From Haloprofundus salilacus (GTDB taxonomy: Archaea > Halobacteriota > Halobacteria > Halobacteriales > Haloferacaceae), in contig NZ_CP083724.1 of NCBI RefSeq assembly GCF_020150815.1, positions 1 through 64,000 on the forward strand: 64,000 nt of DNA, read 5' to 3'. Below, piece by piece: positions 3,128 to 22,698 of this stretch (positions are counted from its first letter, which is position 1; each line of letters opens with the position of its first letter). Both the position numbers and the translations under genes were made by a program. The notes under the pieces were generated by a model. That model did no database searches. It was not told where the DNA came from and saw only the letters and a list, made by a program, of their open reading frames with translations.

Positions 3128-3161
3128 TTTTATTCCTCGATAACCTATGTGGCCATCTATC

Positions 3162-5602: not shown

Positions 5603-6613
5603 CTACGAGTTGTATGCGTCTTGAGCGAGGCGGTGGAACTTGTGGACGGTGTGTTCGTTAGGGCCAAGCTGTGCTTGCGCGAGCGCGCCCGTCTTCAGTC
5701 CATCCCACTGCCGTTCGACCAGTTCGAAGTCCTCTTCTTGGAGTTGACGACTCGTCCGGATGAACTCACGTTCCTCCTCGGAGAGGTCACTGTCGCGGAA
5801 GTAGTAGTCTGCGATGAGTTGGAAGCGGTCGGTATCGACAGGGTCGATGATGTACGTACCGTAGCCGTCGGCGGTGCCGTACATGTTCACCGTGAAATTC
5901 GGCCAGAGGTAGTGGAACTGCGCCTCGTGTTCATCGTGGATACGCATCTCGTCTTCGACATCCTCCTCGTGGGTGTAGTGGAGCACCCAATGGTAGTCGT
6001 TGACTTCGAGTTCCGACTCATCCAACGAGATGCCCTTGATCCAGTCTTGGTGGTTCGCCTGGCAGTGGTCGCATTCAGAGTAGTTGCTTGCGAACACCTT
6101 CCAATTACACTCAACCTCCGAGACGATACGACAGGCGTGTTCGTACTCGCCAAGCGGAAGCGCCTCCAATCGGTCTTTCATCACGCCCGCCTGCTCGGAC
6201 AACGGCATCGGGTCGTCGGCCAGATTCACGAAGACGAGCGGTCCGATACTGTCCACGTGGACGCTCTCTAGGTCAGTGAATTCGTCCGGGTCAATGTATC
6301 CCGGATCTGACATCGGTGTCTCGTCGACGATTGGTGCGCCATCGCGAGCCGAGAAGTTCTTGACGCTGCGGATGTCTCCGTCGGCGGTCCGAACCAGAAT
6401 GAGAGTCTGGTTGCCGACGGTCCGGGTGAAGAACTGCCACGGTTCAGAGATACTGTTTGCGTGACCTGCGTAAATCCAGTACTGGCCGAACACTTTCTCT
6501 TTCTCCATCTCGAAGAACTCCGGCTCGGTGAAGTACTTTGCAGGCAGTGCGTTCGATCGATCGGTGATGTCGGGGCTCACTGGCTTCGCTTGAGCGCGTT
6601 CCCACTGCGTCAT
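5603..6613 (-). CDS. GbcA-like oxygenase paralogue lacking the Rieske cluster
   Basis: A 336-aa protein almost identical to the full-length oxygenase at 7302-8435 from residue ~120 onward. It keeps the catalytic mononuclear-iron region (ECDHCQANH). In the N-terminal domain the first Rieske pair CAHRG is changed (NFSARDGAP), and the segment carrying the second pair (CPYHLW) is deleted, shortening the protein by 41 residues. It therefore cannot bind a [2Fe-2S] cluster. The reading frame is intact and the promoter keeps a motif shared with the intact copy (ATATCACTGG, 39 bp from the ATG). It may be a subunit partner, a regulatory decoy or a recent non-functional duplicate; nothing here decides which. 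Confidence 0.85.
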   Translation of the reverse strand: MTQWERAQAKPVSPDITDRSNALPAKYFTEPEFFEMEKEKVFGQYWIYAGHANSISEPWQFFTRTVGNQTLILVRTADGDIRSVKNFSARDGAPIVDETPMSDPGYIDPDEFTDLESVHVDSIGPLVFVNLADDPMPLSEQAGVMKDRLEALPLGEYEHACRIVSEVECNWKVFASNYSECDHCQANHQDWIKGISLDESELEVNDYHWVLHYTHEEDVEDEMRIHDEHEAQFHYLWPNFTVNMYGTADGYGTYIIDPVDTDRFQLIADYYFRDSDLSEEEREFIRTSRQLQEEDFELVERQWDGLKTGALAQAQLGPNEHTVHKFHRLAQDAYNS

Positions 6614-6651
6614 ACAGTAGCATAGTTACGGCGTATCGTAAAAAGAATTAG

Positions 6652-6661
6652 CCAGTGATAT
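6652..6661 (-). promoter_or_regulatory. Shared promoter motif of the Rieske-less oxygenase
   Basis: ATATCACTGG (minus strand) ends 39 bp before the start codon, just downstream of a TATA-like TTATAATA (about 6667-6675). The same ten bases stand at exactly the same distance before the intact oxygenase gene, although the DNA around them differs. It resembles half of the palindrome at 9952-9975. Confidence 0.5.
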
Positions 6662-6842: not shown

Positions 6843-7199
6843 TCAGAATGCACCAAGGTAATTATCCCGTGGTTCGTAGAGACCGCCGGTCATCCGGACT
6901 TCGTGAATCTTGTCCAACGTTTCGCCGATCGTGAGACCGTGTTCGTTCATCACGGCCGCGACGACGCCGATGGGGACGCCGTTTTCGTACTGCTCTTCGA
7001 GTTGGCGAACGACACCCTTGATATCAGTGCTGGTTACCTCCTCGAAATTTAGCTCTGTACGTTCCAGTTTCACGTCGTGACCGGTGACGCGGTAGTGTCG
7101 TCGGTGGAACGCGACGATTTCGTTCGGCTCGTCCGTCTGCAGGTCGACGTCGCATTCGGGACAGACCGCGACGTACGACGCCTGTTCTTGCGTACTCAT
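6843..7199 (-). CDS. Small zinc-ribbon protein between the oxygenase paralogues
   Basis: A 118-aa protein. Residues ~10-25 hold CPECDVDLQTDEPNE, half of a zinc ribbon, followed by FHRRHYRVTGHDV, where His residues could complete the site. The C-terminal half (VVRQLEEQYENGVPIGVVAA and GETLDKIHEV) is helical and looks like a winged-helix element in which a tail helps choose a DNA site. The start at 7199 (MSTQEQASY) is preferred over an upstream in-frame ATG at 7292 because the extra N-terminus is basic and unlike haloarchaeal proteins. Sitting between two oxygenase genes of one orientation, it may be a regulator or metal-handling accessory. I do not recognise the family. Confidence 0.7.
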   Translation of the reverse strand: MSTQEQASYVAVCPECDVDLQTDEPNEIVAFHRRHYRVTGHDVKLERTELNFEEVTSTDIKGVVRQLEEQYENGVPIGVVAAVMNEHGLTIGETLDKIHEVRMTGGLYEPRDNYLGAF

Positions 7200-7301: not shown

Positions 7302-8435
7302 TTACGAGTTGTAGGCATCCTGAGCGAGGCGGTGGAACTTGTGGACGGTGTGTTCGTTAGGACCAAGTTGCGCCTGCGCGAGCGCACCCGTCTTCAGCCC
7401 ATCCCACTGCCGTTCGACCAGTTCGAAATCCTCTTCTTGGAGTTGGCGACTCGTCCGGATGAACTCACGCTCTTCCTCGGAGAGGTCGCTGTCGCGGAAG
7501 TAGTAGTCTGCGATAAGCTGGAAGCGGTCAGTATCAATAGGGTCGATGATGTACGTGCCGTAGCCGTCGGCAGTGCCGTACATATTCACTGTAAAGTTCG
7601 GCCAGAGGTAGTGAAATTGTGCTTCGTGTTCATCGTGGATACGCATCTCGTCTTCGACGTCTTCCTCGTGAGTGTAGTGGAGTACCCAATGGTAGTCGTT
7701 GACCTCGAGCTCTGATTCGTCCAGCGAGATGCCTTTAATCCAGTCTTGGTGGTTCGCCTGGCAGTGGTCGCACTCCGAGTAGTTGCTTGCAAACACCTTC
7801 CAGTTACACTCGACCTCCGAGACGATGCGACAGGCGTGTTCGTATTCGCCGAGGGGGAGCGCCTCTAATCGGTCTTTCATCACACCTGCCTGGTCGGACA
7901 ACGGCATCGGATCGTCGGCCAGATTCACGAAGACGAGCGGTCCGATGCTGTCTACGTGGACGTCGTTCAATCCGTTCTCCTTGCAATCGAACTCCTGTAC
8001 GTCTTCATCGTCAAGGTCTGGATTGAGGCTCGCCTCCTCGAAGCTCTTAGGGGTACTCTGGAGATTGCCCTCCAGGTCGTAGGTCCAAAGGTGGTACGGA
8101 CACCGGATTCGATTCGCCTCCTCAGGTTCGGTCATCGGCGTATCTTCCACCATCTTCGACCCTCGGTGAGCGCAGACGTTGTCGAATGCTTTGATCTCAC
8201 CGTCGTGGCCTCGGACGACGATCAGTTGGCGGTTGCCGACATTTCTAGTGAAGAACTGTCCTGGCTCGGAGATACTATTTGCGTGACCTGCGTAAATCCA
8301 GTACTGGCTGAACACCTTCTCTTTCTCCATCTCGAAGATTTCAGGTTCGATGAAGTATTTCGCAGGTAGTGCGTTCGATTTCTCCGTGATGTCGGAACTC
8401 ACTTCCTGAGTTTGTGAGTCGTTCCACTGTGTCAT
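7302..8435 (-). CDS. Rieske non-heme iron oxygenase, GbcA-like
   Basis: A 377-aa ring-hydroxylating-type oxygenase alpha subunit. The Rieske [2Fe-2S] ligands are CAHRG (residues ~88-92) and CPYHLW (~112-117); the mononuclear-iron ligands lie in SNYSECDHCQANH (~205-217) with an acidic ligand expected near EEDFELVERQ. In the GbcA branch, enzymes demethylate glycine betaine to dimethylglycine and release formaldehyde; related branches act on carnitine or stachydrine. Two dimethylglycine/sarcosine dehydrogenase-like genes, a BCCT transporter and folate enzymes follow, which favours betaine. No reductase (GbcB-like) gene is visible in the window, so electrons must come from elsewhere. Confidence 0.88.
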   Translation of the reverse strand: MTQWNDSQTQEVSSDITEKSNALPAKYFIEPEIFEMEKEKVFSQYWIYAGHANSISEPGQFFTRNVGNRQLIVVRGHDGEIKAFDNVCAHRGSKMVEDTPMTEPEEANRIRCPYHLWTYDLEGNLQSTPKSFEEASLNPDLDDEDVQEFDCKENGLNDVHVDSIGPLVFVNLADDPMPLSDQAGVMKDRLEALPLGEYEHACRIVSEVECNWKVFASNYSECDHCQANHQDWIKGISLDESELEVNDYHWVLHYTHEEDVEDEMRIHDEHEAQFHYLWPNFTVNMYGTADGYGTYIIDPIDTDRFQLIADYYFRDSDLSEEEREFIRTSRQLQEEDFELVERQWDGLKTGALAQAQLGPNEHTVHKFHRLAQDAYNS

Positions 8436-8473
8436 ACGATACCATCAATACAACCGTCCCTCAAAGCCGTTCA

Positions 8474-8500
8474 CCAGTGATATTCCACATAAATATATAC
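8474..8500 (-). promoter_or_regulatory. Promoter of the GbcA-like oxygenase with TATA box and half-operator
   Basis: On the minus strand a strong TATA box (TATATATTTATG, about 8486-8498) is followed immediately by ATATCACTGG (8483-8474), 39 bp before the start codon. The latter resembles half of the large palindrome at 9952-9975. A protein bound there would block the start site, so repression is the likelier mode. Confidence 0.5.
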
Positions 8501-8591: not shown

Positions 8592-9689
8592 TCAATGGAT
8601 CGGGGCGACGCTTCCTCGGACTCGATTGGCAATTTCGTCGCGGCTGGGGGGATGTTCAGGATCCTCTGTTCCGTAGACTCGCTTCACGACAAGGTCGATG
8701 AGGTTCAATTTCTCCAGAAGCTCGCGGGTTTGCCGCTGGTCAAGTCCCAGTTGTCGTTGGACGTCGTAGAGTGTCATCGACGACTGGACCGCATCTATTA
8801 ATTCCTCGAGTTCAACGTCATTCGGCAATCCAATTCCGTCGGCGATGAGTGGCTTTTGAGGTTCACCTTCGTCTGTCTCGTCGGTTCCTATCGGCTCAAC
8901 TGAGGGTTCTCTCTCGACAGTCGGTGCTTCAACGTACTGATGGTCACCTTTCCGTGTGGGCGTCTTGTTGCTCTCGGTCGATGATTGGTCGTCTTCGGAC
9001 CGACTCTCGGTTTCGTCGCTGGTGTCGTACGTGGTCGGCTGATGGACGCCGGCGTCTATCATGTACCGACGGACAGTTTCGGACGCGACGTCCATTTCGA
9101 GGGCGTCCGCCATCGCAGTGAATGTGTCGAACGAGTCGTACAGACACTGTAAGTACTCGGTGTCCTCGTAGGGAGGAACGTCTTCGTTCCGCGTGTCCGC
9201 GAGTATCCGTTCGATATCGGTCGCTGGAGCAGTCTCCGATTCGGTGTCTGGTCGCGAACTCGTCATGTTCAAGTTGTCACCGCCGACCCTGCTCTCGTCT
9301 TCGGACGATGAACTCGGGGATGTTTCGACGATAAAGTCGAGAGTAAATCCAACGAGTACAGTACCGTTCGCCGTCACGTCAGCCCCTGTTCGGTTCACCG
9401 ACACGTTTTCCGGCGTGTGTTCCTCCAGCGCCGGAACTACCGCCGGCGAAAACTCGACCTGAACGCCGCCGTCATCTCGAAGCGTCGCCGCCTCCGGTGC
9501 GGTATCGACGTTCCTCCGATTGGTCGAAGAGTCGCTCACTGGCAACTCGACATCTACCTCGACAGATGCAGCCGCCCCCTCGTTTCGGGAGTCTCTGACT
9601 TCCGCGTCAACGCGGTGGACCGACCCCCCTGCCGCCTCGTACCGTTCGATGATTTGCGAGAGGTTATCAATCGTGTCACTTACTCCCAT
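8592..9689 (-). CDS. Haloarchaeal protein with two predicted HTH segments
   Basis: A 365-aa acidic protein. The first ~115 residues (to VLVGFTLDFIVE) form a compact beta-rich unit. A Ser/Asp-rich linker follows, then a helical segment TFTAMADALEMDVASETV with RRYMIDAGVHQ that looks like a helix-turn-helix (about residues 175-205). After another acidic linker, a C-terminal segment LYDVQRQLGLDQRQTREL looks like a second one. It lies upstream of and divergent from the first dehydrogenase gene, with a 24-bp palindrome in between, so it is a candidate regulator of the island. I cannot assign it to a named family. Confidence 0.7.
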   Translation of the reverse strand: MGVSDTIDNLSQIIERYEAAGGSVHRVDAEVRDSRNEGAAASVEVDVELPVSDSSTNRRNVDTAPEAATLRDDGGVQVEFSPAVVPALEEHTPENVSVNRTGADVTANGTVLVGFTLDFIVETSPSSSSEDESRVGGDNLNMTSSRPDTESETAPATDIERILADTRNEDVPPYEDTEYLQCLYDSFDTFTAMADALEMDVASETVRRYMIDAGVHQPTTYDTSDETESRSEDDQSSTESNKTPTRKGDHQYVEAPTVEREPSVEPIGTDETDEGEPQKPLIADGIGLPNDVELEELIDAVQSSMTLYDVQRQLGLDQRQTRELLEKLNLIDLVVKRVYGTEDPEHPPSRDEIANRVRGSVAPIH

Positions 9690-10061: not shown

Positions 10062-12674
10062 ATGGCAGTGTCAGATATGAACACGCACGACAGCTTGCCG
10101 ACCGAAGCGGATACTGTTGTTGTCGGTGCTGGTATCGTTGGGTGTAGTACGGCGTATCACCTCACCGAGCTGGGTCGCGACAACGTGGTCGTCGTTGACC
10201 AGGGTCCGCTCCCGACGACCGGCGGATCGTCCAGCCACGCCCCCGGTATCATGTTTCAGACGGCCGAGGAGAAGGTCCTTACCAAGTTCGCGATGTACAG
10301 TCGTGAACTCTACTCACAGTTCGAAGATGAGGACGGGAAACCGCTCTACAACCAAGTCGGCGGAATCGAAGTCGCACGTTCGGACGAACGGATGGACTTC
10401 CTGCAGCGCCGCGTGGAGTGGGGAAAATCGTGGGGACTACCGAACCCTCAGCTCCTCTCGCCCGAAGAGGTGGAGGAGAAGCTTCCGCTCGTCGACAGCG
10501 ACGTGATAAAAGGGGGGTACTACTCACCCACCGACGGACAGGTCTCGGGAGTGAAGGCGTGTGCGGCGCTCGCAGAGGCGGCGATGGAACAAGGAGCGAC
10601 GTTCATTCCTCATACGAGGACCAAGAATGTGTCCGTCGAGGACGGCGAGGTACGCTCGGTCGTCACCGAGAACGGCGAGATCGAGTGCAACGAGATCGTC
10701 ATCGCGACGAATATCTGGGCGCGTCAGCTCGGAGAGAAACTGGGTGTTCACCTGCCGGTGACGCCGGTGGAACACCAGTACACGATCACCGAGCCGCTCG
10801 AAGAGCTCGCGGAGAGTCGAGAGGATGTCAGCAACCATCCGGTGTACGAGAATTACCGAGACGTTTCCGGAGAGAAAGCCGATAGACTTCTCGTCGGTCC
10901 CGACCGACCCATCCTCCGCGATCAGGACAACGCGATGTACTTCCGGACGCACGGGGACGCCTACGGACTCGGATCGTACAACCACGAGCCCATCGTCCCC
11001 GACCCGCAGGAACTCGGCGGCAACGAGGAAGACGGCGAGCAGGGTTCGATTCACGAGTTCTCCGAGTATCACATGAACAACGCGACTCACCCTGACCGCC
11101 CGGATAAAGCTCCCCGGAAGGCGAGTGACGAACTGCTGCCCGCGACAGAGGGGAAGATACTCGAACACAGGTACAACGGCATGTTCGCGGAGTCGCCGAA
11201 CGGCCTTCCCGTGATGGGGCCGGTACAGGAGTACGACGGGCTCTGGTCTGCGGCCGCGATCTGGGTAACTCACGCCGGCGGTGCAGGGAAAGCGCTCGCC
11301 GAGTGGATGGAGAACGGCGTGCCGAGCCTTCCCGAAGGGCCAATCGACCTGCGCCACTGCGACGTCAACCGATTTCAGCCCCACGAGGGGAGCTGGGACT
11401 TCGCTCGCGACATCGGTGGCGAGGAGTACCGTATCGTCTACAATATCGTCCATCCGAAGTGGACCTGGACCGATCACCAACGTGACATCCGCCGGAGCTC
11501 GGTCTACCACAAGCTCCAGGAACTCGACGCCGAACTCTGGGCGGAGGCGGGCTGGGAGGAGGCTCACTGGTTCGACTCCAACGCCGACCTGCTAGCGCGG
11601 TATGGCGACCAGGTTCCTGATCGGGACGGCTGGGAGGCGAAGTATTGGTCGCCCATCGAGGGCGCAGAGGCCCTGCATGTGCGTAATGCGGTCGGGCTCC
11701 ACGACATGACCTCCTTCAACAAGATGGAGATCAGCGGGACAGGAGCCGGTGAGTTCGTCCAGTACCTCTGTACGAACGATATGGACATCGACATCGGACA
11801 GGTCCGATACACGCTCATGTGTAATGAGGAGGGCGGCGTGCGTGCGGACATCACCGTCACGCGCGTCGACGACGACCGGTATCTAGTGCTCACAACCGGG
11901 CGCGAGGTCGGACAGAATCACCTCGCGTGGATTCGCCAGCACGCACCTGACGGCGTCGTCGTCCGCGATGTGACATCAACGCTCTCGTCGTTCGTCCTCA
12001 CAGGTCCGAACGCCCGAAAGGTGCTTCGGAAGATTACCCGTGCAGACCTAACGAACGACGCGTTCCCCTACTTCTCGTCGCAGCAGCTGTTCGTCGAAAA
12101 CGTTCCGGTCACCGCACTGCGCGTCTCCTACGCCGGTGAACTCGGCTGGGAACTGTACACCCCCACCGAGTACGGCGAACAGCTCTGGGAGATTCTCTGG
12201 GAGGCTGGACAGGAGTACGACCTCAGGCCGTATGGGAACGGTGCTCTCGATTCGCTTCGTATCGAAAAGGGGTTCCGTCTATGGGGTGAGGACCTCCACA
12301 CCGAGCATAACCCGTACGAAGCCGGACTCGGCTTTGCCGTCGATTTAGAGACCGAGTTCATCGGCAAGGATGTCGTCGCCGAGGCTGCAGACGGCAACCG
12401 AATCCGCCACAAAGTTGCCTGTCTTACGCTCGACGACGAGGAGGCCGTTATCTTCTCCGACCGTCCCGTTCTCGACGAAGATGAGACGCTGGGCTACGTC
12501 CACAGCGCAGAGTACGGCTACACCGTCGGCGCTTGTATCGCCTATGCGTATCTCCCCCCGGAGTACGCCGAACCGGGAACCGAGGTAGAAATCCTCCACG
12601 AGGGCGAGCGTTACAGCGCGACGGTTCGCGAGGAGCCGCTCTTCGACCCTGAACGCGAACGCGTACGCTCGTAA
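10062..12674 (+). CDS. FAD/GcvT-domain dehydrogenase (dimethylglycine or sarcosine dehydrogenase-like), copy 1
   Basis: An 870-aa two-part protein. The N-terminal FAD oxidoreductase (about 1-430) begins with VVVGAGIVGCSTAYHL and has SSSHAPGIMF, where a His may bind flavin covalently. A linker domain follows, then a C-terminal aminomethyltransferase (GcvT) domain (about 480-870) with LTTGREVGQNHLAW and RIEKGFRLWGEDL. Enzymes of this build oxidise N-methyl groups of dimethylglycine or sarcosine and pass the carbon to tetrahydrofolate as methylene-THF. It fits directly after the GbcA-like step. ATG 10062 is taken as start; an ATG at 10077 is also possible. About half of its residues match copy 2 by eye, so the two probably take different substrates. 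Confidence 0.9.
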   Translation: MAVSDMNTHDSLPTEADTVVVGAGIVGCSTAYHLTELGRDNVVVVDQGPLPTTGGSSSHAPGIMFQTAEEKVLTKFAMYSRELYSQFEDEDGKPLYNQVGGIEVARSDERMDFLQRRVEWGKSWGLPNPQLLSPEEVEEKLPLVDSDVIKGGYYSPTDGQVSGVKACAALAEAAMEQGATFIPHTRTKNVSVEDGEVRSVVTENGEIECNEIVIATNIWARQLGEKLGVHLPVTPVEHQYTITEPLEELAESREDVSNHPVYENYRDVSGEKADRLLVGPDRPILRDQDNAMYFRTHGDAYGLGSYNHEPIVPDPQELGGNEEDGEQGSIHEFSEYHMNNATHPDRPDKAPRKASDELLPATEGKILEHRYNGMFAESPNGLPVMGPVQEYDGLWSAAAIWVTHAGGAGKALAEWMENGVPSLPEGPIDLRHCDVNRFQPHEGSWDFARDIGGEEYRIVYNIVHPKWTWTDHQRDIRRSSVYHKLQELDAELWAEAGWEEAHWFDSNADLLARYGDQVPDRDGWEAKYWSPIEGAEALHVRNAVGLHDMTSFNKMEISGTGAGEFVQYLCTNDMDIDIGQVRYTLMCNEEGGVRADITVTRVDDDRYLVLTTGREVGQNHLAWIRQHAPDGVVVRDVTSTLSSFVLTGPNARKVLRKITRADLTNDAFPYFSSQQLFVENVPVTALRVSYAGELGWELYTPTEYGEQLWEILWEAGQEYDLRPYGNGALDSLRIEKGFRLWGEDLHTEHNPYEAGLGFAVDLETEFIGKDVVAEAADGNRIRHKVACLTLDDEEAVIFSDRPVLDEDETLGYVHSAEYGYTVGACIAYAYLPPEYAEPGTEVEILHEGERYSATVREEPLFDPERERVRS

Positions 12675-12782: not shown

Positions 12783-13335
12783 GGCCTTGTTTAGACGCGG
12801 AACAAAAGTCTACTGTTTCGCAGTCTACCAATGCTGTCATCTTGATTGATCTGAAGGTGAGTATGTCCAATTTGCGCAGTGATGGCTGGCCGAATAGCGG
12901 TCGAAGCCAATTGCATAGATAGCCTGCACGTCTCCGGTATCGTGAAGATTAGCGGAAAGTCGCAGGAGAGTTCGCCAGACCGCCATCTTGAGCTGCTGCT
13001 TCCGTGAGTATACGGTCGTGAAGTCCGGCAGCTCGCTCGGTTTAAGATTCATTTTCTTGACAATCTCGCGCATCTCGTGAAGAACATCGAGGAGCTGTCG
13101 ATATGGAAGGTCAAGGTATTCGCGGAGACCGTAAATCACAACGATTACCCAGTCAGCGTAGCCGCCGTCACTCTTCTTGACCGCTGGTGAAGAATCGCCA
13201 GAGACAGCGCGTTTCGCCAATGTTTCGAGGCGATCTGTAAAGCGCAAGAGACGAGAGGGCACACTACTCGGGTCTGACTCAGAGGTCAGTTAGTTCGCCG
13301 GAGTGAGTGGTTCTCTACAACGTCTAAACAAGCCC
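12783..13335. mobile_element. Internally deleted IS5-group insertion sequence
   Basis: Terminal inverted repeats GGCCTTGTTTAGACG (12783-12797) and CGTCTAAACAAGCCC (13321-13335) match at 14 of 15 positions. They enclose only ~550 bp with the 5' part of a transposase, so the copy is deleted and immobile by itself. No target duplication is obvious. A 141-bp element at 52468-52608 has nearly the same ends. It separates the two dehydrogenase genes. Confidence 0.75.
12837..13262 (-). pseudogene. Truncated IS5-group transposase
   Basis: The 141-aa product starts MPSRLLRFTDRLETLAKRAV and continues SDGGYADWVIVVIYGLREY and IYAIGFDRYSASHHCANW, which matches the N-terminal half of haloarchaeal IS5-type transposases. 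The first catalytic Asp would lie near IGFD. The DDE domain after this is missing, and the frame ends in SPSDQSR. Inactive. Confidence 0.8.
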
Positions 13336-13491
13336 CTCAGATATCATATCGCCTCCTCTCAGAAACGTTCGACATCCTATCACGTTGTGGATTCGACGTC
13401 GTCTATCTCGTGTCGACAGACGTTCACTCCGCGCTTTGACTTAAATGACCGGTGGACTTATGCGACAGACTGTGTCACTGGTATGTGTCAT

Positions 13492-16041
13492 ATGAGCACA
13501 GAGACTCTCCCGTCGCGAGCCGACACGGTGATCGTCGGCGCCGGGGCCGTCGGGTGTAGCGTTGCATATCACCTGACCGAACTCGGCGCCGACGACGTAA
13601 TCGTCGTTGACCAAGGACCGCTCCCGGTCACAGGTGGTTCGTCGACGCACGCGCCGGGAATCATGTTTCAGACGTCTCCCTCGAAGATTCAGACCAAGAC
13701 CGCTCACTACACGAGCCGACTGCTTAACGACGCGGGCGTCTACACGGAGGTCGGCGGCATCGAACTCGCGCGGTCGGAAGCCCGGATGGACTTCCTCCAG
13801 CGACGCGTCGAGTGGGCGACGTCGTACGGTTTGCCGGAGCCGCAGCTCCTCGAATCAGCGGAAGTCGCCGATAGGCTCCCCTTGGTCAATGAAGACGAGA
13901 TTCTGGGTGGCTACTACTCACCGACCGACGGACAGGTCGCGGGTACCGACGCACTCCAGTGGTATATCGAATCCTCGTCGGCTCGGTTTTTCGGCCATAC
14001 GGAACTGACGGACATTGAGATCGATGGTGGCGAAATTCAGGCCATTGTCACCGACCGGGGTCGCATCGAGTGTGAGCGGTGCGTCCTCGCGACGAACAAC
14101 TGGGCGTACCAGACCGGTCAGATGGCCGGTCTCGACTTACCGATAACGCCCGTCGAGCACCAGTACGTCGTCACCGAACCACTCGACGAACTCCGAGATG
14201 GGAGAGCCGTCGGCTCCGCCACCGACGGTCTGGAGGTGCCCGGTGACCGCCGCCTCACCGAGTTCATGGCTCAGCCCCCAGACCGCCCGGTCGGGCGCGA
14301 CCAAGACAACTCGCTGTACTTCCGCACCCACGGTGACGGCTACGGACTCGGGTCGTACAACCACGAACCGCTGGTTGTCGACCCAGAGGAGATGGGGAAG
14401 AACGACGAGGAGAGTCAGGCGTCGGTTCACAGCTTCACGGAGAAACACTGGACGGAGCCGACGCATCCGAACCGAGAGAAGTCGGCCCAGCAAGCGTTCG
14501 ACGAACTCCTCCCGGCGACCCAGGGCAAGGCGTTCCGCGTGACGGAGAACGGCATCTTCGTCTACACGCCGGATGGAATGCCGGTGCTCGGCGAGACGTC
14601 CGCGGTCGACGGTCTCTGGACCGGTCTGGCCATCTGGTGGACTCACTCCGGGGGGTACGGCCGGATTCTCGCAGAGTGGATGGAGAACGGCGTCCCGCGA
14701 CTCCCCTCGGGACCGGTCGACACGAGCGGGATTCATGTCAATCGGTTCGAACCGCACGCAGGGAGTAAGGACTACTTCACGGACCGCGGCGGCCTGCGGT
14801 ACCAGCAGGTGTACAGCATCGTCGAACCGCGGTGGCAACCCGACGACCACCGCGGCCTACGGGTGAGTCCGTTCTACCACCACCAGCAGGAACTCGGAGC
14901 CGAGTTCTTCCAAAGCGGCGGTTGGGAGGTGCCGCAGTGGTACGAACACAACACGGACCTCCTCTCGAAGTATAGCGAACAGATTCCGGAACAGGAGGGG
15001 TGGCAGGCCATCAACCGCTCGCCGATAACGGGCGCCGAGCACCTCCACACCCGAGATAACGTCTCAATGTTCGATATGACCACGTTCAGCTCGATACGGG
15101 TTACGGGCGCGAATGCCGGCGAGTTCCTCCAACAGTACTGTACCAACGACATGGAACTCGACGTCGGCCAGGTGCGGTACACGACGATGCTGAACCACGG
15201 CGGGACGATTCTCGCCGACCTCACCGTCGCCCGTCTCGACGAGAACGAGTACATGGTGACCACCGGTGGTGGTAACTCTCCGGGGATACACGGGTCATGG
15301 CTCGAAAAACACGCTCCCGAGACTGTCTCCGTGACTGTCGAAGAGTCTGCGAAGTGTACCGTCGGCCTCTGGGGTCCGAACTCGCGGCTCCTGCTCCAGC
15401 GCGTCACCAACGCGGACGTCTCCAACGCCGGGTTCCCGTACTTCAGCTGCAAGCGAATCTACGTCGGAGATGTACCGATTATTGCGCTTCGGGTCTCGTA
15501 CGTCGGCGAACTCGGCTGGGAACTGTGGGCACCGTCGGAGTACGGCCAGAAGCTCTGGCGCACGCTCTGGGAGGCCGGCCGTGACCTCGACATCAGGCCC
15601 ATGGGCGCGGGCGCGCTCGAATCGATGCGCTTAGAAAAGGGGTTCCGACTCTGGGGGACGGACATCGACACGGACGTCGACCCCCTCACCGCTGGACTCC
15701 CGTTCGCGGTCGACTTTGACACGGAGTTCGTCGGCAAAGAGGCACTCGTCGATATCAGGGAAAGTGGCGTCGACAACCGCATCGTTCCCCTGACACTCGA
15801 CGAATCGACGGACATCCTCTCGAGCGGCCGCCCAGTCCACGTAAACGATGAGGTCGGCGGATACGTGCAGGCCGCCGACTACGGCTACAGTGTCGGAGAG
15901 TCGATAGCGTATACCTACCTACCGAGCGAACACGCTGATCCTGGGACCGCAGTCCGGATAACGTGCGAGGGCGAGACATACGATGCGACCGTTCGTGACG
16001 AACCGCTCTTCGATTCCAGCCGCGAGAAAATTATCCGATGA
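13492..16041 (+). CDS. FAD/GcvT-domain dehydrogenase (dimethylglycine or sarcosine dehydrogenase-like), copy 2
   Basis: An 849-aa homologue of the protein at 10062-12674 with the same order: FAD domain with VIVGAGAVGCSVAYHL and SSTHAPGIMF, linker, and GcvT domain with VSYVGELGWELW and RLEKGFRLWGTD. With two such enzymes one may act on dimethylglycine and the other on sarcosine. The open frame extends upstream to 13303, but the extra part overlaps IS sequence; ATG 13492 gives the family-typical MSTETLPSRADTVIVGAG (13483 would add three residues). The IS remnant now separates it from copy 1, so it needs its own promoter. Likely followed by the ammonia-lyase as an operon (34-bp gap). Confidence 0.9.
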   Translation: MSTETLPSRADTVIVGAGAVGCSVAYHLTELGADDVIVVDQGPLPVTGGSSTHAPGIMFQTSPSKIQTKTAHYTSRLLNDAGVYTEVGGIELARSEARMDFLQRRVEWATSYGLPEPQLLESAEVADRLPLVNEDEILGGYYSPTDGQVAGTDALQWYIESSSARFFGHTELTDIEIDGGEIQAIVTDRGRIECERCVLATNNWAYQTGQMAGLDLPITPVEHQYVVTEPLDELRDGRAVGSATDGLEVPGDRRLTEFMAQPPDRPVGRDQDNSLYFRTHGDGYGLGSYNHEPLVVDPEEMGKNDEESQASVHSFTEKHWTEPTHPNREKSAQQAFDELLPATQGKAFRVTENGIFVYTPDGMPVLGETSAVDGLWTGLAIWWTHSGGYGRILAEWMENGVPRLPSGPVDTSGIHVNRFEPHAGSKDYFTDRGGLRYQQVYSIVEPRWQPDDHRGLRVSPFYHHQQELGAEFFQSGGWEVPQWYEHNTDLLSKYSEQIPEQEGWQAINRSPITGAEHLHTRDNVSMFDMTTFSSIRVTGANAGEFLQQYCTNDMELDVGQVRYTTMLNHGGTILADLTVARLDENEYMVTTGGGNSPGIHGSWLEKHAPETVSVTVEESAKCTVGLWGPNSRLLLQRVTNADVSNAGFPYFSCKRIYVGDVPIIALRVSYVGELGWELWAPSEYGQKLWRTLWEAGRDLDIRPMGAGALESMRLEKGFRLWGTDIDTDVDPLTAGLPFAVDFDTEFVGKEALVDIRESGVDNRIVPLTLDESTDILSSGRPVHVNDEVGGYVQAADYGYSVGESIAYTYLPSEHADPGTAVRITCEGETYDATVRDEPLFDSSREKIIR

Positions 16042-16075
16042 ACAGCGCCGACGAGTGAACACCCCATCTAAACTC

Positions 16076-17332
16076 ATGAGCGAATCACGGGAAGACGAGC
16101 CGTTGATACGGTACACAGACGTTGAACAGGCAGCCGAACAGTTGACCGACGAGACGGTGGTCAAACGGACGCCAGTCGAGCGAAGCACGTCGCTCGGGGA
16201 ACTGGTCGACGCGGAGGTGTATCTCAAGATGGAGCATCTCCAGTGGACGGGCTCGTTCAAGACGCGGGGCGCCTATAACAAGATCAGCCGTGCCGTTGAC
16301 GCTGGGGCGGACGAGTTCGTCGCCGCCAGTGCGGGAAACCACGCTCAAGGGGTGGCACTGGCGGCGACGCGGTGTGGTGCGAATTCGACTATCGTCATGC
16401 CGAAACACGCACCGCAGGCAAAGATCGACGCGACACGGGGGTACGGAGCGACGGTCGAACTCGTCGGACAAAACTTTCAGGAGGCGATGGAGTATGCCCA
16501 GTCGTACGCCGCCGAGCAGGATGTCGAATTCGTCCATGCGTACGATGACCCGCACATCGTCGCCGGACAGGGAACACTCGGAATCGAGATGTACGAAGAT
16601 TGTCCCGACGTGGACACGGTCATCGTCCCCATCGGCGGTGGCGGACTAATAAGCGGCATCGCCACCGCACTCAGCCACCTCTCTCCGGAGATACGGGTGG
16701 TCGGCGTGCAGGCTGAGGGTGCGGCGACCGTCCACGAGAGCCTTAACAAGGGACTTCCAGTTACACTTGACGAGGTGGACACGATCGCCGACGGTATCGC
16801 GACCGGCGGCATCTCAGAACTGACGCTGAACCTCATCGAGCGACACGTCGACGAGGTTGTCACCGTCACCGACTCCCAGATAGCCAACGCCATCCTGTTG
16901 CTGCTCGAACGGGCGAAGCAGGTCGTCGAAGGCGCGGCCGCGGCGTCGGTCGCGGCGCTCCTGAGCGAAGACCTCAACGTTCACGGCGAGACAGTCATGC
17001 CGCTACTCTGTGGTGGGAACCTCGATATGACAATGCTACAGACAATCTTGATTCACGCGCTCACGGAGCGAGGACAGATTCTCCGCCTGCGTGTGAAGAT
17101 CAATGATATGCCGGGAAAGATGAACGCGATCTCCGGTATCATCGCTGAGCACGGCGCAAACATCCAAACCGTCAGACACGACCGCGCCGTCGAGGAACTT
17201 GAAGTCGGCGAAGCGTATCTCGTCTTCCAGATAGAGACGAGCGGGGCCGAACACGTAGCCTCGATAATTCAGGCACTCGAGTCGGAGGGCTATAGTGTCG
17301 AGGACGTCAACCAAAACAAGACAAATAGTTGA
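16076..17332 (+). CDS. Serine/threonine ammonia-lyase with ACT domain
   Basis: A 418-aa fold-type II PLP enzyme. The PLP lysine is in SFKTRGAYNKISRA (about residue 60), the glycine-rich phosphate loop is GGGGLISGIA (~185), and SAGNHAQGVA (~85) is the substrate loop. The last ~85 residues (LRLRVKINDMPGKMNAISG onward) are an ACT domain for allosteric control. Family members deaminate threonine to 2-oxobutyrate or serine to pyruvate. In this island, after glycine and serine-forming steps, serine dehydration to pyruvate is the likely job, and RidA nearby would hydrolyse the aminoacrylate released. The start at 16076 replaces a longer frame overlapping the upstream gene. Confidence 0.88.
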   Translation: MSESREDEPLIRYTDVEQAAEQLTDETVVKRTPVERSTSLGELVDAEVYLKMEHLQWTGSFKTRGAYNKISRAVDAGADEFVAASAGNHAQGVALAATRCGANSTIVMPKHAPQAKIDATRGYGATVELVGQNFQEAMEYAQSYAAEQDVEFVHAYDDPHIVAGQGTLGIEMYEDCPDVDTVIVPIGGGGLISGIATALSHLSPEIRVVGVQAEGAATVHESLNKGLPVTLDEVDTIADGIATGGISELTLNLIERHVDEVVTVTDSQIANAILLLLERAKQVVEGAAAASVAALLSEDLNVHGETVMPLLCGGNLDMTMLQTILIHALTERGQILRLRVKINDMPGKMNAISGIIAEHGANIQTVRHDRAVEELEVGEAYLVFQIETSGAEHVASIIQALESEGYSVEDVNQNKTNS

Positions 17333-17444: not shown

Positions 17445-17606
17445 ATGAGAGACAGTGACTACCGATGTCCAGGCGAACTAACGAGCAGACAGAGACGCGG
17501 TGCATTGCTCAAGCAAGAGAGAGAGCACGTCGAACAGGCCCGTCAGGCGGCGGTTACACTCCGTTCGCCGCCGAAGGCCCCAACGGGAGTGAGTAAGTAT
17601 GGCTAA
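17445..17606 (+). CDS. Possible small basic protein before the BCCT transporter gene
   Basis: A 53-codon frame from ATG 17445 (or 60 from 17424) encodes MRDSDYRCPGELTSRQRRGA and a charged helix (KQEREHVEQARQAAVTL) and ends 8 bp inside the transporter gene, a spacing typical of translational coupling. No homologue is recognised and it is basic, unlike most neighbours. It fills the only gap between the lyase and the transporter. Low certainty; it could be a leader. Confidence 0.35.
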   Translation: MRDSDYRCPGELTSRQRRGALLKQEREHVEQARQAAVTLRSPPKAPTGVSKYG

Positions 17607-19233
17607 CTCGGAATCAAACGGTCCGATCGGCCGGTTCACTGAGGAACTCGACCTAGTGGTGTTCACGGTCGGATTCGTCGTGTCAGCGGCCGCGGTAATC
17701 GCGTTCGTCTTCAGACCAGAGGCGATGTCGGGGTACATGACCAACGTGAACAACTTCCTGTGGACGGACGTCGGCTGGTGGTACTTGATCGCCATGTTCT
17801 TCCTGGTCGCCTTCGTCACGTTTCTCATATTTTCCCCGTGGGGGAATATCAAACTCGGAGCGAAGGAAGACGAGCCCGAATTCTCCTTCCTCGCGTACTT
17901 CGCGATGCTGTACTCGGCCGGCATTGCCGCTGGAATCGTCTTCTGGGGGCCGGCAGAAGCGATTTTCCACTACGACTCCGTCTCGCCGTTCGTCGGCGCG
18001 GAAGCACAATCGGCAGAGGCGGCCGTCGGCGCTATTCAGTACACGTTCTTCCATTGGGGACTTTCGGCGTGGACGGCGTACGTGGTGATGGCGCTGCCCA
18101 TCGCATATTTCGCCTATCGGCACGACGCGCCGTTACGCATCTCGACGGTCATCGCACCGTGGATTGGAATCGAGAATCTCGACAGACCGATAGCGAAACT
18201 CATCGATATCCTCGCCGTCTTCGCGACTATCGGTGGTGTTGCGACGACACTTGGTCTCGTCGGCCGTCAGTTCTTGGTCGGTGTTGAGTGGATGTCCGGC
18301 ATAAGCGTCGGCGATACTGGGACCATCCTCGTGATTACCGGACTGACCGTCGCGTTCACACTCTCGGTCGCGCTCGGCGTCGAGAAGGGGATTCGGCGAA
18401 TCTCGTACTTCAACATGGTACTGTTCGCTATCGTGACCGTGGCGACGTTCGTTCTCGGACCGACGACGTACATCGTCTCCATCGGGACTGAGGCGCTCGG
18501 TGCCTACATCAATGATTTCATCACAATGAGCTTCTACACCGGCGCCACGGAGAGCATCGGTGGCGGTGTCGGCGCGTGGGTCGGCGGCTGGACCATCTTC
18601 TACTGGGCGTGGTGGTTCTCTTGGACGCCGTTCGTCGGCTTATTTATCGCGCGTATTTCACGCGGGCGAACGGTCAGACAGGTCGCCGTCACGGGCGTCA
18701 TCGCCTCGACTGGCGTCACGATTCCGTGGTTCGCCACCATGGGCGGTACTGCCATCTTGCTCCAAGAGACCGGCCGAGCCGACATCCTCGCTGTCGTCGG
18801 CGAACTCGGAGAGGCCGGATCGGGCTACCCACTCTTCGAAGCGTTGCCGCTCGGCGGCCTCCTGACCGTCCTCTTCCTCGTTCTCGTGACGACATTCCTC
18901 ATCACCTCCGCCGACTCTTCGACGCTCGCGCTGGGGATGCTCACTACTGGCGGCACCGAGAGACCGTCGACTATCAATCGCGTCGTCTGGGGATTCCTTA
19001 TCGGCTCTCTTGCGTCGCTGCTGATGGTGACCGGCGGCGTCGACGCTCTGCAGCAGGCTGCCATCATCACCGGGGGACCGTTTTCGATTATCACTGTTCT
19101 CGCGGTCGCGGCGATGATTGTCTCCTTCGGCGATCACAGGCCGCTATTCCTCCGCGAGGAGGATGGGGTCTCGTTGCCGTCGCTCAGAAGCGAATCGTCT
19201 GAACCGGAGACGGCCGACCCCTCCGACGACTGA
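17599..19233 (+). CDS. BCCT-family transporter (betaine/choline/carnitine type)
   Basis: A 544-aa membrane protein with about 12 predicted hydrophobic segments. It carries the BCCT signatures GWWYL, WGPAEAIFHY, FFHWGLSAWTAYV and the tryptophan-rich FYWAWWFSWTPFVGLFIARI, followed by SRGRTVR. BCCT carriers import quaternary ammonium compounds with Na+ or protons. Position within a betaine-degrading island indicates uptake of glycine betaine for food as well as osmoprotection. The start at 17599 gives a short hydrophilic N-terminus. The C-terminal tail (FLREEDGVSLPSLRSESSEP) is short, without the long osmosensing extension of BetP-like proteins. Confidence 0.92.
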   Translation: MANSESNGPIGRFTEELDLVVFTVGFVVSAAAVIAFVFRPEAMSGYMTNVNNFLWTDVGWWYLIAMFFLVAFVTFLIFSPWGNIKLGAKEDEPEFSFLAYFAMLYSAGIAAGIVFWGPAEAIFHYDSVSPFVGAEAQSAEAAVGAIQYTFFHWGLSAWTAYVVMALPIAYFAYRHDAPLRISTVIAPWIGIENLDRPIAKLIDILAVFATIGGVATTLGLVGRQFLVGVEWMSGISVGDTGTILVITGLTVAFTLSVALGVEKGIRRISYFNMVLFAIVTVATFVLGPTTYIVSIGTEALGAYINDFITMSFYTGATESIGGGVGAWVGGWTIFYWAWWFSWTPFVGLFIARISRGRTVRQVAVTGVIASTGVTIPWFATMGGTAILLQETGRADILAVVGELGEAGSGYPLFEALPLGGLLTVLFLVLVTTFLITSADSSTLALGMLTTGGTERPSTINRVVWGFLIGSLASLLMVTGGVDALQQAAIITGGPFSIITVLAVAAMIVSFGDHRPLFLREEDGVSLPSLRSESSEPETADPSDD

Positions 19234-19424: not shown

Positions 19425-20675
19425 TCACTCGTATATCGGGAACTCCTCGCAGAGCTCGTCGACAGTGCTTGTGACGCGGTCGCGGACGCGGTCGTCGTCG
19501 GGGGAGTCGAGTACGTCAACGATGAGGTCGGCGACGGTTTCCATCTCCGTGCCACCGAATCCGCGGGTCGTGAGCGCGGGTGTGCCGACGCGGATACCGC
19601 TCGTTACCATCGGCGACCGCGTCTCCCCGGGCACGGTGTTCTTGTTGACGATAATACCGACGTCGTTCAACGCCGATTCGGCCGCTTTCCCCGTCAGTTC
19701 GGGGTGCGAGTCACGGAGGTCGACGAGCATGAGATGTTTGTCGGTGCCACCGCTGACTAGCGAGAGCCCACCCGCTTCGAATCGTGACGCGAGTCGCTTC
19801 GCATTCGAGACAACCTGCTCGGCGTATGCCTCGAACTCGGCCGTCTGCGCCTCCGCGAATCCGGCTGCCTTACCGGCGATATTGTGCATCAGCGGTCCTC
19901 CCTGCGCGCCGGGGAAGATGGCCGAGTCAACGTCGTCTGCGAATTTCTCATCACAGATGATGAGTCCGCCCCGGCCTGCGCGAATCGTCTTGTGCGTACT
20001 TCCGGTAACGAACTCCGCGTGTTCGACCGGTGATGCGTGGATACCGGCCGCGATGAGTCCGGTGACGTGGGCGATGTCGGCGAGATGGTAGGCGTCGACC
20101 TCGTGGGCAATCTCCCCGATGCGCTCGAAGTCGAACTCGCGGGGGTATGCCGACGAGCCGCTGACGATGATGTCGGGGTCGACGTCGAGTGCCTGCGCCG
20201 CCAGTTCGTCATAGTCGATGTATCCCGTCTCAGGGTCGACCTCGTACTGTTCGACGTCGTAGAGCTGCCCTGAGAAGTTAACTGTGTGTCCGTGCGAGAG
20301 GTGTCCGCCGTGCGAGAGTGCCAGCGAGAGGATGGTGTCGCCGGGTTCTAGGGCGGCGAAGTAGACGCCCATGTTAGCCTGGGTTCCGCTATGCGGCTGA
20401 ACGTTGACGTGCTCCGCGTCGAAAAGTTCCGTTGCACGGTCGATGGCGAGTTGCTCGACAGTGTCGACGTGCTGGCATCCTCCGTAGTAGCGGTTTCCGG
20501 GGTAGCCCTCGGCATACTTGTTCGTCAGAACGCTTCCCTGCGCCTCGAGGACGGCTTTCGAGACGTGATTCTCCGAAGCAATCATTCCGAGCGTCGACTC
20601 CTGCCGGTCACGTTCACGAGTGACGGCCTCGGACACGCTCGGAGCTATCTGGCTGAGTGACTGTTCGAACGCCAT
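19425..20675 (-). CDS. glyA: Serine hydroxymethyltransferase
   Basis: A 416-aa PLP enzyme with family signatures: IASENHVSKAVLEAQGSVLT, NKYAEGYPGNRYYGGCQ, and the PLP lysine in GSTHKTIRAGRGG (about residue 226). It interconverts serine and glycine plus 5,10-methylene-THF. In this island it can condense glycine (from betaine) with the one-carbon unit released by the dehydrogenases, giving serine for the ammonia-lyase. ATG 20675 (MAFEQSLSQIAPSV) is chosen over an upstream in-frame ATG at 20732. It is convergent with the transporter gene and divergent from ridA, with about 140 bp in which I see no clear operator. Confidence 0.95.
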   Translation of the reverse strand: MAFEQSLSQIAPSVSEAVTRERDRQESTLGMIASENHVSKAVLEAQGSVLTNKYAEGYPGNRYYGGCQHVDTVEQLAIDRATELFDAEHVNVQPHSGTQANMGVYFAALEPGDTILSLALSHGGHLSHGHTVNFSGQLYDVEQYEVDPETGYIDYDELAAQALDVDPDIIVSGSSAYPREFDFERIGEIAHEVDAYHLADIAHVTGLIAAGIHASPVEHAEFVTGSTHKTIRAGRGGLIICDEKFADDVDSAIFPGAQGGPLMHNIAGKAAGFAEAQTAEFEAYAEQVVSNAKRLASRFEAGGLSLVSGGTDKHLMLVDLRDSHPELTGKAAESALNDVGIIVNKNTVPGETRSPMVTSGIRVGTPALTTRGFGGTEMETVADLIVDVLDSPDDDRVRDRVTSTVDELCEEFPIYE

Positions 20676-20812
20676 AATCAACCTCGAACGGATGTGTGTA
20701 AGTATCTTGCGAGAGCTGTGGGATGAACACAACCTGTAACGAGAGAGGAAGGCTGTGGACCGAGCGCGCTAAGAACAGGGATTTATGACGACTGAGAGGT
20801 TACTCTCACTCG

Positions 20813-21393: not shown

Positions 21394-22371
21394 TCAGTCG
21401 TCCGCTACGGCCGTCGTCTCACCGTCACTGACGGCGCTCTCCTCGTGTCTGTCCCTCGGAGCGTCAGGGTTCGCATGGTCCAGCTCCTCGGGAGCGCCGA
21501 GCTGTACGTCGACACGGTCGGGCTCTTCGACTTCCGTTCGGCCCTGCTGAACCGTGAGTTGGTCATCGAGGTGGAGCTGTACCGCCTCGATTAGCGCCTC
21601 GGCCTCGAGTGGCTGTCCGCGAGTCTTGAGCTCTGCCTCCGTCGCGTCAGCGGGGACGTTGAACGCTCGTTGAGTGATAATCGGCCCTTGGTCGAGGTCC
21701 GTCGTCACGTAGTGGGCAGTAACGCCGGCGACGCGGACACCTTCCTCCTTCGCCTGCCGGTAGGCGGCCGCACCGGGGAAGGAGGGGAGCAGACTCGGGT
21801 GAACGTTGATGATGCGCTGTTCGTACCGGAAGACGACTTCGGGCGAGAGAATCCGGATGTAGCGGGCCAGCGCAATGAGGTCGACGTCATACTCGGCGAG
21901 GTAGTCGAGTAACTCCTCCTCGTTTGGCGCACCATTCTCGTCACCGATGTCGTGGAACGGGACGTCGTATTCGGCCGCCAGCGGCTCCAGCGCGTCGTGG
22001 TTCCCGATGACAACTTCGATGTCGGCTCCGAGTTCGCCGTCGTGCCACCGTTCGAGAAGCGCTTCGAGACAGTGGCTCTCTTTCGTAACGAGGACGGCGA
22101 TAGATTGGTTCTCGCAGTTAGACGGGAATCGGACCTGCACGTCGACGTCGAACTCGTCACCCAGTTCGTGCAGTTTCTCTCGGAACGTCTCCCGGCCAAC
22201 TATCATCTCAGAGATATCGACGTTCATCGTCATCCGGAAGGTCCCATCTCGAACCGCCTGGTCGAGGTCGGTGATGTTGACGCCGTGGTCGAACAGGAGT
22301 GCGGTGATATCGGCGATGAGTCCCGAATCGTCGTCGCCGACGACCGTTATCTCGGTCGACTCGCGGGTCAT
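21394..22371 (-). CDS. purU: Formyltetrahydrofolate deformylase
   Basis: A 325-aa protein with an N-terminal ACT domain (TEITVVGDDDSGLIADITAL) and a C-terminal formyltransferase-type catalytic domain. The latter contains NHDALEPLAAEYDVPFHDIG, INVHPSLLPSFPGAAAYRQA and GVTAHYVTTDLDQGPII, with the catalytic Asn/His/Asp set expected in these blocks. PurU hydrolyses 10-formyl-THF to formate and free THF. In a pathway that pours methyl carbons into folate, it restores THF. The protein has an acidic tail of about 50 residues beyond the usual end. The start at 22371 (MTRESTEITV) is selected over an upstream frame start at 22437. Confidence 0.9.
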   Translation of the reverse strand: MTRESTEITVVGDDDSGLIADITALLFDHGVNITDLDQAVRDGTFRMTMNVDISEMIVGRETFREKLHELGDEFDVDVQVRFPSNCENQSIAVLVTKESHCLEALLERWHDGELGADIEVVIGNHDALEPLAAEYDVPFHDIGDENGAPNEEELLDYLAEYDVDLIALARYIRILSPEVVFRYEQRIINVHPSLLPSFPGAAAYRQAKEEGVRVAGVTAHYVTTDLDQGPIITQRAFNVPADATEAELKTRGQPLEAEALIEAVQLHLDDQLTVQQGRTEVEEPDRVDVQLGAPEELDHANPDAPRDRHEESAVSDGETTAVADD

Positions 22372-22698
22372 CGTCCCCACCGCGTCATTTCGTTTGCGGA
22401 ACCGTTCGTCGCCTGTCGTCGGGCGGCAGTTCGACACACGCGTTCCTGCCGCTGCCGCCGCAGTGGCGGCTCACTCTCTTGAGGTAGCATCCAATCGATA
22501 CGTTCCAGACCACCGGTAATGAACGTTGGTTCTCGTAGTACCAGGCAGATACGATGTGTTTCCACACCACGTCGTATATTTCATCTGTTACTATGAAAAG
22601 TGATCTGCCGACCTTGCCAGACGCCGTCTCCGATGCCGTTGAGATATCCAAGTGCCCTCGGCGACAATTTGATGTCACCACCGAGAGGGACAGATGAT

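Follow-up and report, generated by a model that had tools for sequence, protein, structure and literature searches.

A haloarchaeal Rieske oxygenase subunit without Rieske ligands and the sister chain that probably supplies its electrons

Close to one end of the window (the whole stretch of 64,000 nucleotides of Haloprofundus salilacus DNA analysed here) lies a gene for an oxygenase alpha-type subunit that lacks all ligands of a Rieske cluster, next to a complete sister gene. This locus raises the question whether the Rieske-less protein, called S in the following, is a relic or a working subunit and, in the latter case, from where its iron would receive electrons. The parts of S and its complete partner L are:

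5603..6613, minus strand: S, 336 aa, alpha-type subunit of a Group V Rieske oxygenase without Rieske ligands; ORF unbroken from ATG to stop
6299..6418, minus strand: diverged Rieske-domain remnant, S residues 66-105, a single clade of all S orthologues (SH-aLRT 99.3)
6344..6352, minus strand: SAR, codons 88-90 of S, where L has CAH (first Rieske ligand pair)
5606..6268, minus strand: catalytic domain of S, residues 116-336, 98-99% identical to L and gene-converted with it
6050..6085, minus strand: iron motif NYSECDHCQANH of S, with Y178, bridging E180, C181, H183, C184 and H188
5729..5731, minus strand: codon of D295 of S, third iron ligand according to the alignment with CntA
7302..8435, minus strand: L, complete partner, 377 aa, Rieske ligands C88/H90/C112/H115, iron site E221/H224/H229/D336, 688 bp from S

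A sequence-only reading of this DNA had described an open frame in which both Rieske ligand pairs are gone and the catalytic part stays near-identical to an intact paralogue 700 bp away. The alignment with L confirms this, the exact distance being 688 bp. CAH of L (residues 88-90) is aligned to SAR in S, and 41 residues including CPYH (112-115 of L, the second ligand pair) are deleted just after the remnant, leaving none of the four ligands of C-x-H and C-x2-H. The 2-His-1-Asp iron site is present in the alignment (H183, H188, D295), together with the Group V Cys pair (C181, C184). Pfam finds only PF00848 in S, but PF00355 plus PF00848 in L. The best-scoring NCBIfam model for both proteins is the GbcA model NF058607, but with 141.8 bits for L and 72.6 bits for S neither reaches the curated cut-off of 670 bits. 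The public records examined have so far named S only 'SRPBCC family protein', an annotation that can now be corrected.

The search for Rieske-less copies in other haloarchaea, which had been proposed as a check, found many of them. Such an S is present in 16 of 391 sampled haloarchaeal genomes and is kept in at least 20 haloarchaeal genomes from several families, with examples on plasmid pHTUR02 of Haloterrigena turkmenica and in Haloprofundus salinisoli, Halocatena salina, Natrinema versiforme, Halegenticoccus soli, Halogranum amylolyticum, Haladaptatus halobius and Natronococcus species. All 20 aligned full-length S orthologues lack each of the four Rieske ligands and share a common gap, an agreement far too great for chance, and in the same 20 proteins Y178, the bridging E180, H183, H188 and D295 are invariant. 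The four ligands are present in all L and reference proteins and in all proteins of a further type, P, which is described below. S is accompanied by L or P in every S genome of the class sample; in genome G191, which has S, L is visible only as two pieces at contig ends. Haloarcula amylovorans possesses L and no S. The loss of the Rieske ligands is old, inherited and family-wide, and not local to the window.

Three kinds of sequence were left out of the trees, namely hit L081 (a 225-aa frame matching over 58 residues), a Haloterrigena salina contig with repeated segments within its ORFs, and LUM.53, a divergent protein of a MAG. The internal repeats on the Haloterrigena salina contig occur in S and L frames (L075, L074, L049) and are probably an assembly error at near-identical, gene-converted paralogues. 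In Natrinema versiforme (L035/L045) the C-terminal 30 residues are tandemly repeated in both S and L, which is probably an assembly artefact as well.

A different partner was found in six Natronococcus-type genomes, where S is adjoined by P instead of L. The ligand table shows the Rieske C/H/C/H set of P kept in all six proteins. Its iron site is damaged in all six: one His has gone with a shared 4-residue deletion, Glu or Arg stands in place of the other, and in four of the six the third iron ligand is missing too. Whole-genome searches for a complete enzyme of the GbcA-type family found none in the six S+P genomes, the closest thing being a distant 34% protein in one of them. S, with only the iron site, and P, with only the Rieske cluster, are therefore the sole pieces left in these six genomes. 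They meet the definition of a complementary two-chain type, with one iron-only and one Rieske-only chain, which the window does not meet because its L is complete. The other Natronococcus genomes differ: a seventh, Natronococcus sp. CG52, has S and a complete L, an eighth the canonical enzyme only, and a ninth none of these.

The ratio of synonymous to non-synonymous changes between the two copies had been suggested as a further check. Over 214 codons of the catalytic domain, S and L of the window show 53 synonymous differences against 6 non-synonymous ones (pN/pS 0.031), a strongly purifying and not a neutral pattern. Neither of the two conditions named beforehand as refuting, the absence of such copies elsewhere and neutral substitution, is thus fulfilled. 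Faster evolution is seen in the Rieske remnant of S (pN/pS 0.3-0.48). The Natronococcus S proteins have a catalytic-domain pN/pS of 0.10 against 0.30 for the remnant; with P the order is reversed, 0.50 for the catalytic and 0.06-0.10 for the Rieske domain. These contrasts were examined by Fisher test in three independent Natronococcus species pairs. For P, 43 synonymous and 13 non-synonymous changes in the Rieske region stand against 86 and 101 in the catalytic region (p 6e-5); the catalytic domains of P and S differ with p 5e-4, and the contrasts that involve the Rieske remnant are weaker (p 0.03-0.04). Judged by substitution patterns, constraint is mirrored in the two chains, lying in the catalytic domain of S and in the Rieske domain of P.

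Different parts of S have different histories. In genomes with S and L the catalytic domain of S clusters with its own L, or that of the nearest relative, mostly with 91-100% support, and a single clade of all S is rejected for this domain (AU p 4e-7, with lnL lower by 705). Such a clade is what the Rieske-remnant segment does give (SH-aLRT 99.3 without P), although in the maximum likelihood tree of these 120 nt with P included the monophyly of S receives only 68% ultrafast bootstrap. At fourfold sites, S and its own L diverge by as little as 1/33 at some places of the catalytic domain; for the remnant the value is in most cases half or more. The tree conflict and the fourfold sites together indicate that the catalytic parts of S and L have been made alike by repeated gene conversion without an end to the Rieske-less state. 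Therefore the low dN of S in these genomes cannot by itself count as proof of selection, for which the independent evidence comes from Natronococcus. The sequence-only reading was right about the loss, which is supported much more strongly than it could know, but it has to be corrected in that the loss is inherited by a family and the near-identity of S and L is partly a product of repeated conversion.

S and L also share a promoter motif, as had been noticed before:

6640..6660, minus strand: motif TATCACTGG...AA..TTTT upstream of S, about -47 from ATG
8462..8482, minus strand: motif TATCACTGG...AA..TTTT upstream of L, about -47 from ATG

Within the window the motif TATCACTGGYKAAYNNNTTTK is found upstream of these two genes and nowhere else, with 0.01 chance matches expected. 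Across genomes the element TATMACTGGYKAAC, whose first base lies about 47 bases ahead of the ATG, precedes, if up to two mismatches are allowed, 18 of 20 S, 14 of 15 L and 6 of 6 P genes, compared with none of 10 canonical homologues and 4 of 2000 shuffles.

An AlphaFold (AF2) model of S reached a pLDDT of 70 and a pTM of 0.74, with low values at residues 178-183. Superposed with carnitine monooxygenase CntA over both domains, it gives a TM score of 0.71 (Z 25.7, 268 aligned, rmsd 2.7). S is accordingly predicted to meet the overall two-domain alpha fold, and in the model the sandwich of the Rieske domain seems to be retained minus the cluster-binding lobes. The model of L, built with 19 sequences, had a pLDDT of 40 and was left unused; hence there is no interface model. 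Y178, E180, H183, H188 and D295 of S align to Y203, E205, H208, H213 and the Asp ligand of CntA, where the roles of the cation-pi residue Y203, of E205 and of the 2-His-1-Asp triad are described (PMC7948474, PMC10952381). The distance from cluster to iron in CntA is 44 A within a chain and 12.2 A across neighbouring subunits, bridged by E205 (PMC7948474). By analogy with CntA we infer that S has kept the acceptor side and lost the donor side of this transfer, and P the reverse.

The genes around S and L in the window include:

6843..7199, minus strand: small HVO_B0008-like protein with PF25214/PF25215, encoded between L and S; 14 of 20 S loci have a member of its family
8592..9689, minus strand: 365-aa protein adjoining L, no Pfam match; family beside L or P in 15 of 20 S loci
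10062..12674, plus strand: dimethylglycine/sarcosine oxidase or dehydrogenase-like protein (DAO + FAO_M + GCV_T + GCV_T_C)
13303..16041, plus strand: second dimethylglycine/sarcosine oxidase or dehydrogenase-like protein
15983..17332, plus strand: threonine/serine ammonia-lyase (TIGR01127 above cut-off; true start probably later)
17599..19233, plus strand: BCCT betaine/carnitine/choline transporter
19425..20732, minus strand: serine hydroxymethyltransferase (SHMT)
21394..22437, minus strand: formyltetrahydrofolate deformylase-like protein

This neighbourhood fits a catabolic route from betaine via glycine to serine and C1 units, and at other S loci there is in addition a gene of the alcohol-dehydrogenase type whose annotation reads glutathione-independent formaldehyde dehydrogenase. 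The substrate of the oxygenase is probably glycine betaine, which is inferred from gene context, the GbcA model not having been passed. The HVO_B0008-like protein could be a regulator or assembly factor, and the 365-aa protein may, as a guess, be a regulator that reads the shared promoter motif. As electron donor of the oxygenase a ferredoxin seems likely. A domain search of the window's own genome found no PF00175 reductase domain; other Rieske-domain proteins are encoded there. With a ParA-like gene (267-1142) and a Cdc6/Orc1-like gene (3147-4418) at the contig start, the cluster appears to sit on a plasmid-like replicon, as in several relatives. Downstream of it an aldehyde ferredoxin oxidoreductase family protein is encoded (29333-31273), and in Haloterrigena turkmenica, too, the annotation has such a gene close to S.

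From these data the following mechanism can be proposed. S would be a functional, catalysis-only alpha-prime subunit of a haloarchaeal betaine-type Rieske oxygenase, joined head-to-tail with a chain that carries the Rieske cluster (L in the window, P in Natronococcus). Electrons would pass from the [2Fe-2S] cluster of the partner across the interface, via the bridging E180, and reach the mononuclear iron held by H183, H188 and D295 of S. This iron would oxidatively demethylate a quaternary amine, probably glycine betaine to dimethylglycine and formaldehyde. By arithmetic, a head-to-tail S/P trimer of any mixed composition would have exactly one productive junction, and mixed S/L trimers one or two. 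L would still be self-sufficient in the S+L genomes, while in the Natronococcus lineage the iron site of the partner would then have disappeared, so that the enzyme came to depend on both genes. Such a ratchet, in which a tolerated Rieske-less subunit permits the later loss of the iron site in its partner, would fit the Natronococcus series.

We consider it likely that S acts in hetero-oligomers in which the Rieske cluster of a neighbour reduces its iron, although the hetero-oligomers, the electron transfer in trans and the substrate are inferred. What the sequences themselves show is which ligands are lost and kept, that the losses of S and P are complementary with no complete enzyme beside them, the mirrored constraint, the concerted evolution, the common promoter motif and the pathway genes nearby. 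That S and its partner form one enzyme with electrons crossing between subunits is very probable, assembly and activity again being inferences. With somewhat more reserve we also think that Natronococcus contains an obligate heteromer of two sister alpha chains, one Rieske-only and one iron-only, and that S with a complete L in the window is a living intermediate of this split, with conversion keeping the shared assembly and catalytic parts alike and the Rieske-less state preserved. The earlier idea of mixed trimers has gained independent support in its general form, as the Natronococcus partner shows a complementary loss without any complete enzyme, but the trimers themselves remain without direct proof. 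Some points speak against the hetero-oligomer: a mixed S/L trimer should have fewer productive junctions than L3, Haloarcula amylovorans manages L without S, gene conversion alone could keep the catalytic domain of S functional-looking in S+L genomes, and the model of S is only moderate (pLDDT 70), with no protein, complex or activity data.

Other roles for S are conceivable. As a catalytically silent regulatory or structural subunit it could reduce the number of electron-fed sites in L trimers and act as a brake on formaldehyde or peroxide, for which one may cite the missing self-sufficient electron path in S, the completeness of the window's L, which can occur without S, and the common promoter motif. 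A silent subunit, however, needs neither Y178 nor the bridging Glu nor the iron triad, yet all 20 S have them unchanged; the six Natronococcus-type S keep the iron site without a complete L to convert from, and their genomes hold no other iron-competent member of the family, so that we regard this role as unlikely. It is also rather improbable that S works independently of the Rieske domain of L or P, either with a separate ferredoxin or reductase feed or as an H2O2 peroxygenase, perhaps via the adjacent flavin oxidases. NdmC is indeed a Rieske-less oxygenase fed by NdmD (PMC4408171), CntA is capable of a peroxide shunt (PMC10952381), and other Rieske-domain proteins exist in the window's genome, but the bridging Glu is invariant, the Rieske domain of P is strongly constrained with no iron of its own to feed, the domain search of that genome yielded no PF00175 reductase, and S is always found with L or P.

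The remaining doubts concern decay. Simple pseudogene decay, already disputed by the sequence-only reading, is rejected by the widespread orthologues, the purifying selection on the catalytic domain and the invariant iron ligands. A decaying S whose frame is kept open by conversion from L could draw on the repeated conversion of the catalytic domains and on the faster remnant, but a single in-frame deletion has been inherited in at least 20 genomes of several families with the promoter motif nearly always present, and in Natronococcus, where a complete donor is missing, the catalytic pN/pS of S is still 0.10; we find this scarcely credible. Hardly better is the case for S and P of Natronococcus as relics after the loss of betaine oxidation. 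Neither is complete alone and the catalytic domain of P is fast (pN/pS 0.50), but each is constrained exactly in its retained half, and both keep open frames, the promoter motif and the linkage to dimethylglycine-type oxidase genes, which makes this very unlikely. Neofunctionalisation of S towards another substrate was likewise considered and dropped, given the ongoing homogenisation of the two catalytic domains.

The hetero-oligomer can be compared with several known enzymes. The closest solved structure to L and S is the Group V carnitine monooxygenase CntA/YeaW (PDB 6Y8J, 6Y8S, 6Y9D), with which they have in common the N-Y-x-E-C-x-H-C-x3-H motif, Asp as third ligand and the quaternary-amine Tyr. 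Intersubunit electron transfer occurs in CntA and is proposed for S/L; CntA is a homotrimer with both metal centres on one polypeptide, whereas the Rieske ligands are missing from S. The glycine betaine monooxygenase GbcA of bacteria is alike in inferred reaction and pathway neighbours, but S and L score far under the curated cut-off of its model. In the caffeine N7-demethylase NdmC with NdmD/NdmE, a Rieske-less catalytic subunit works with a Rieske cluster on another polypeptide (PMC4408171). S does not belong to this type, in which the whole Rieske domain is absent and the cluster comes from a reductase fusion: the Rieske of NdmD is fused to a reductase, while S according to its model keeps a ligand-free Rieske scaffold and its proposed donor is a sister alpha subunit.

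The division of Rieske cluster and iron in Natronococcus S+P resembles that of CAO1/CAO2, the chlorophyllide a oxygenase of the alga Micromonas, an enzyme with a chlorophyll substrate. One of these chains keeps the Rieske cluster and the other the iron site. To our knowledge no intermediate of the Micromonas split is known, unlike in the haloarchaea, where the intermediate (S with complete L) and the completed split (S+P) are both present. That the catalytic system of Micromonas is spread over two polypeptides is stated in PMC9615114, which cites Kunugi (2013). NdmC/NdmD and Micromonas CAO are thus precedents for a Rieske cluster in trans; literature searches on haloarchaeal Rieske betaine oxygenases found no papers.

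Because Rieske oxygenases pass electrons between neighbouring subunits, their trimer should tolerate subunits with a single metal centre. The haloarchaeal genes look like natural proof of this tolerance at two stages: at one the Rieske-less chain accompanies a complete enzyme, at the other the reciprocal split is finished. They also look like a clear case of a homomer turning into an obligate heteromer. With them, simple gene deletions can put intersubunit electron transfer to the test in vivo, and spectroscopy gains natural single-centre subunits. New in comparison with the precedents are the two sister alpha chains, the visible intermediate, the concerted evolution and the archaeal host.
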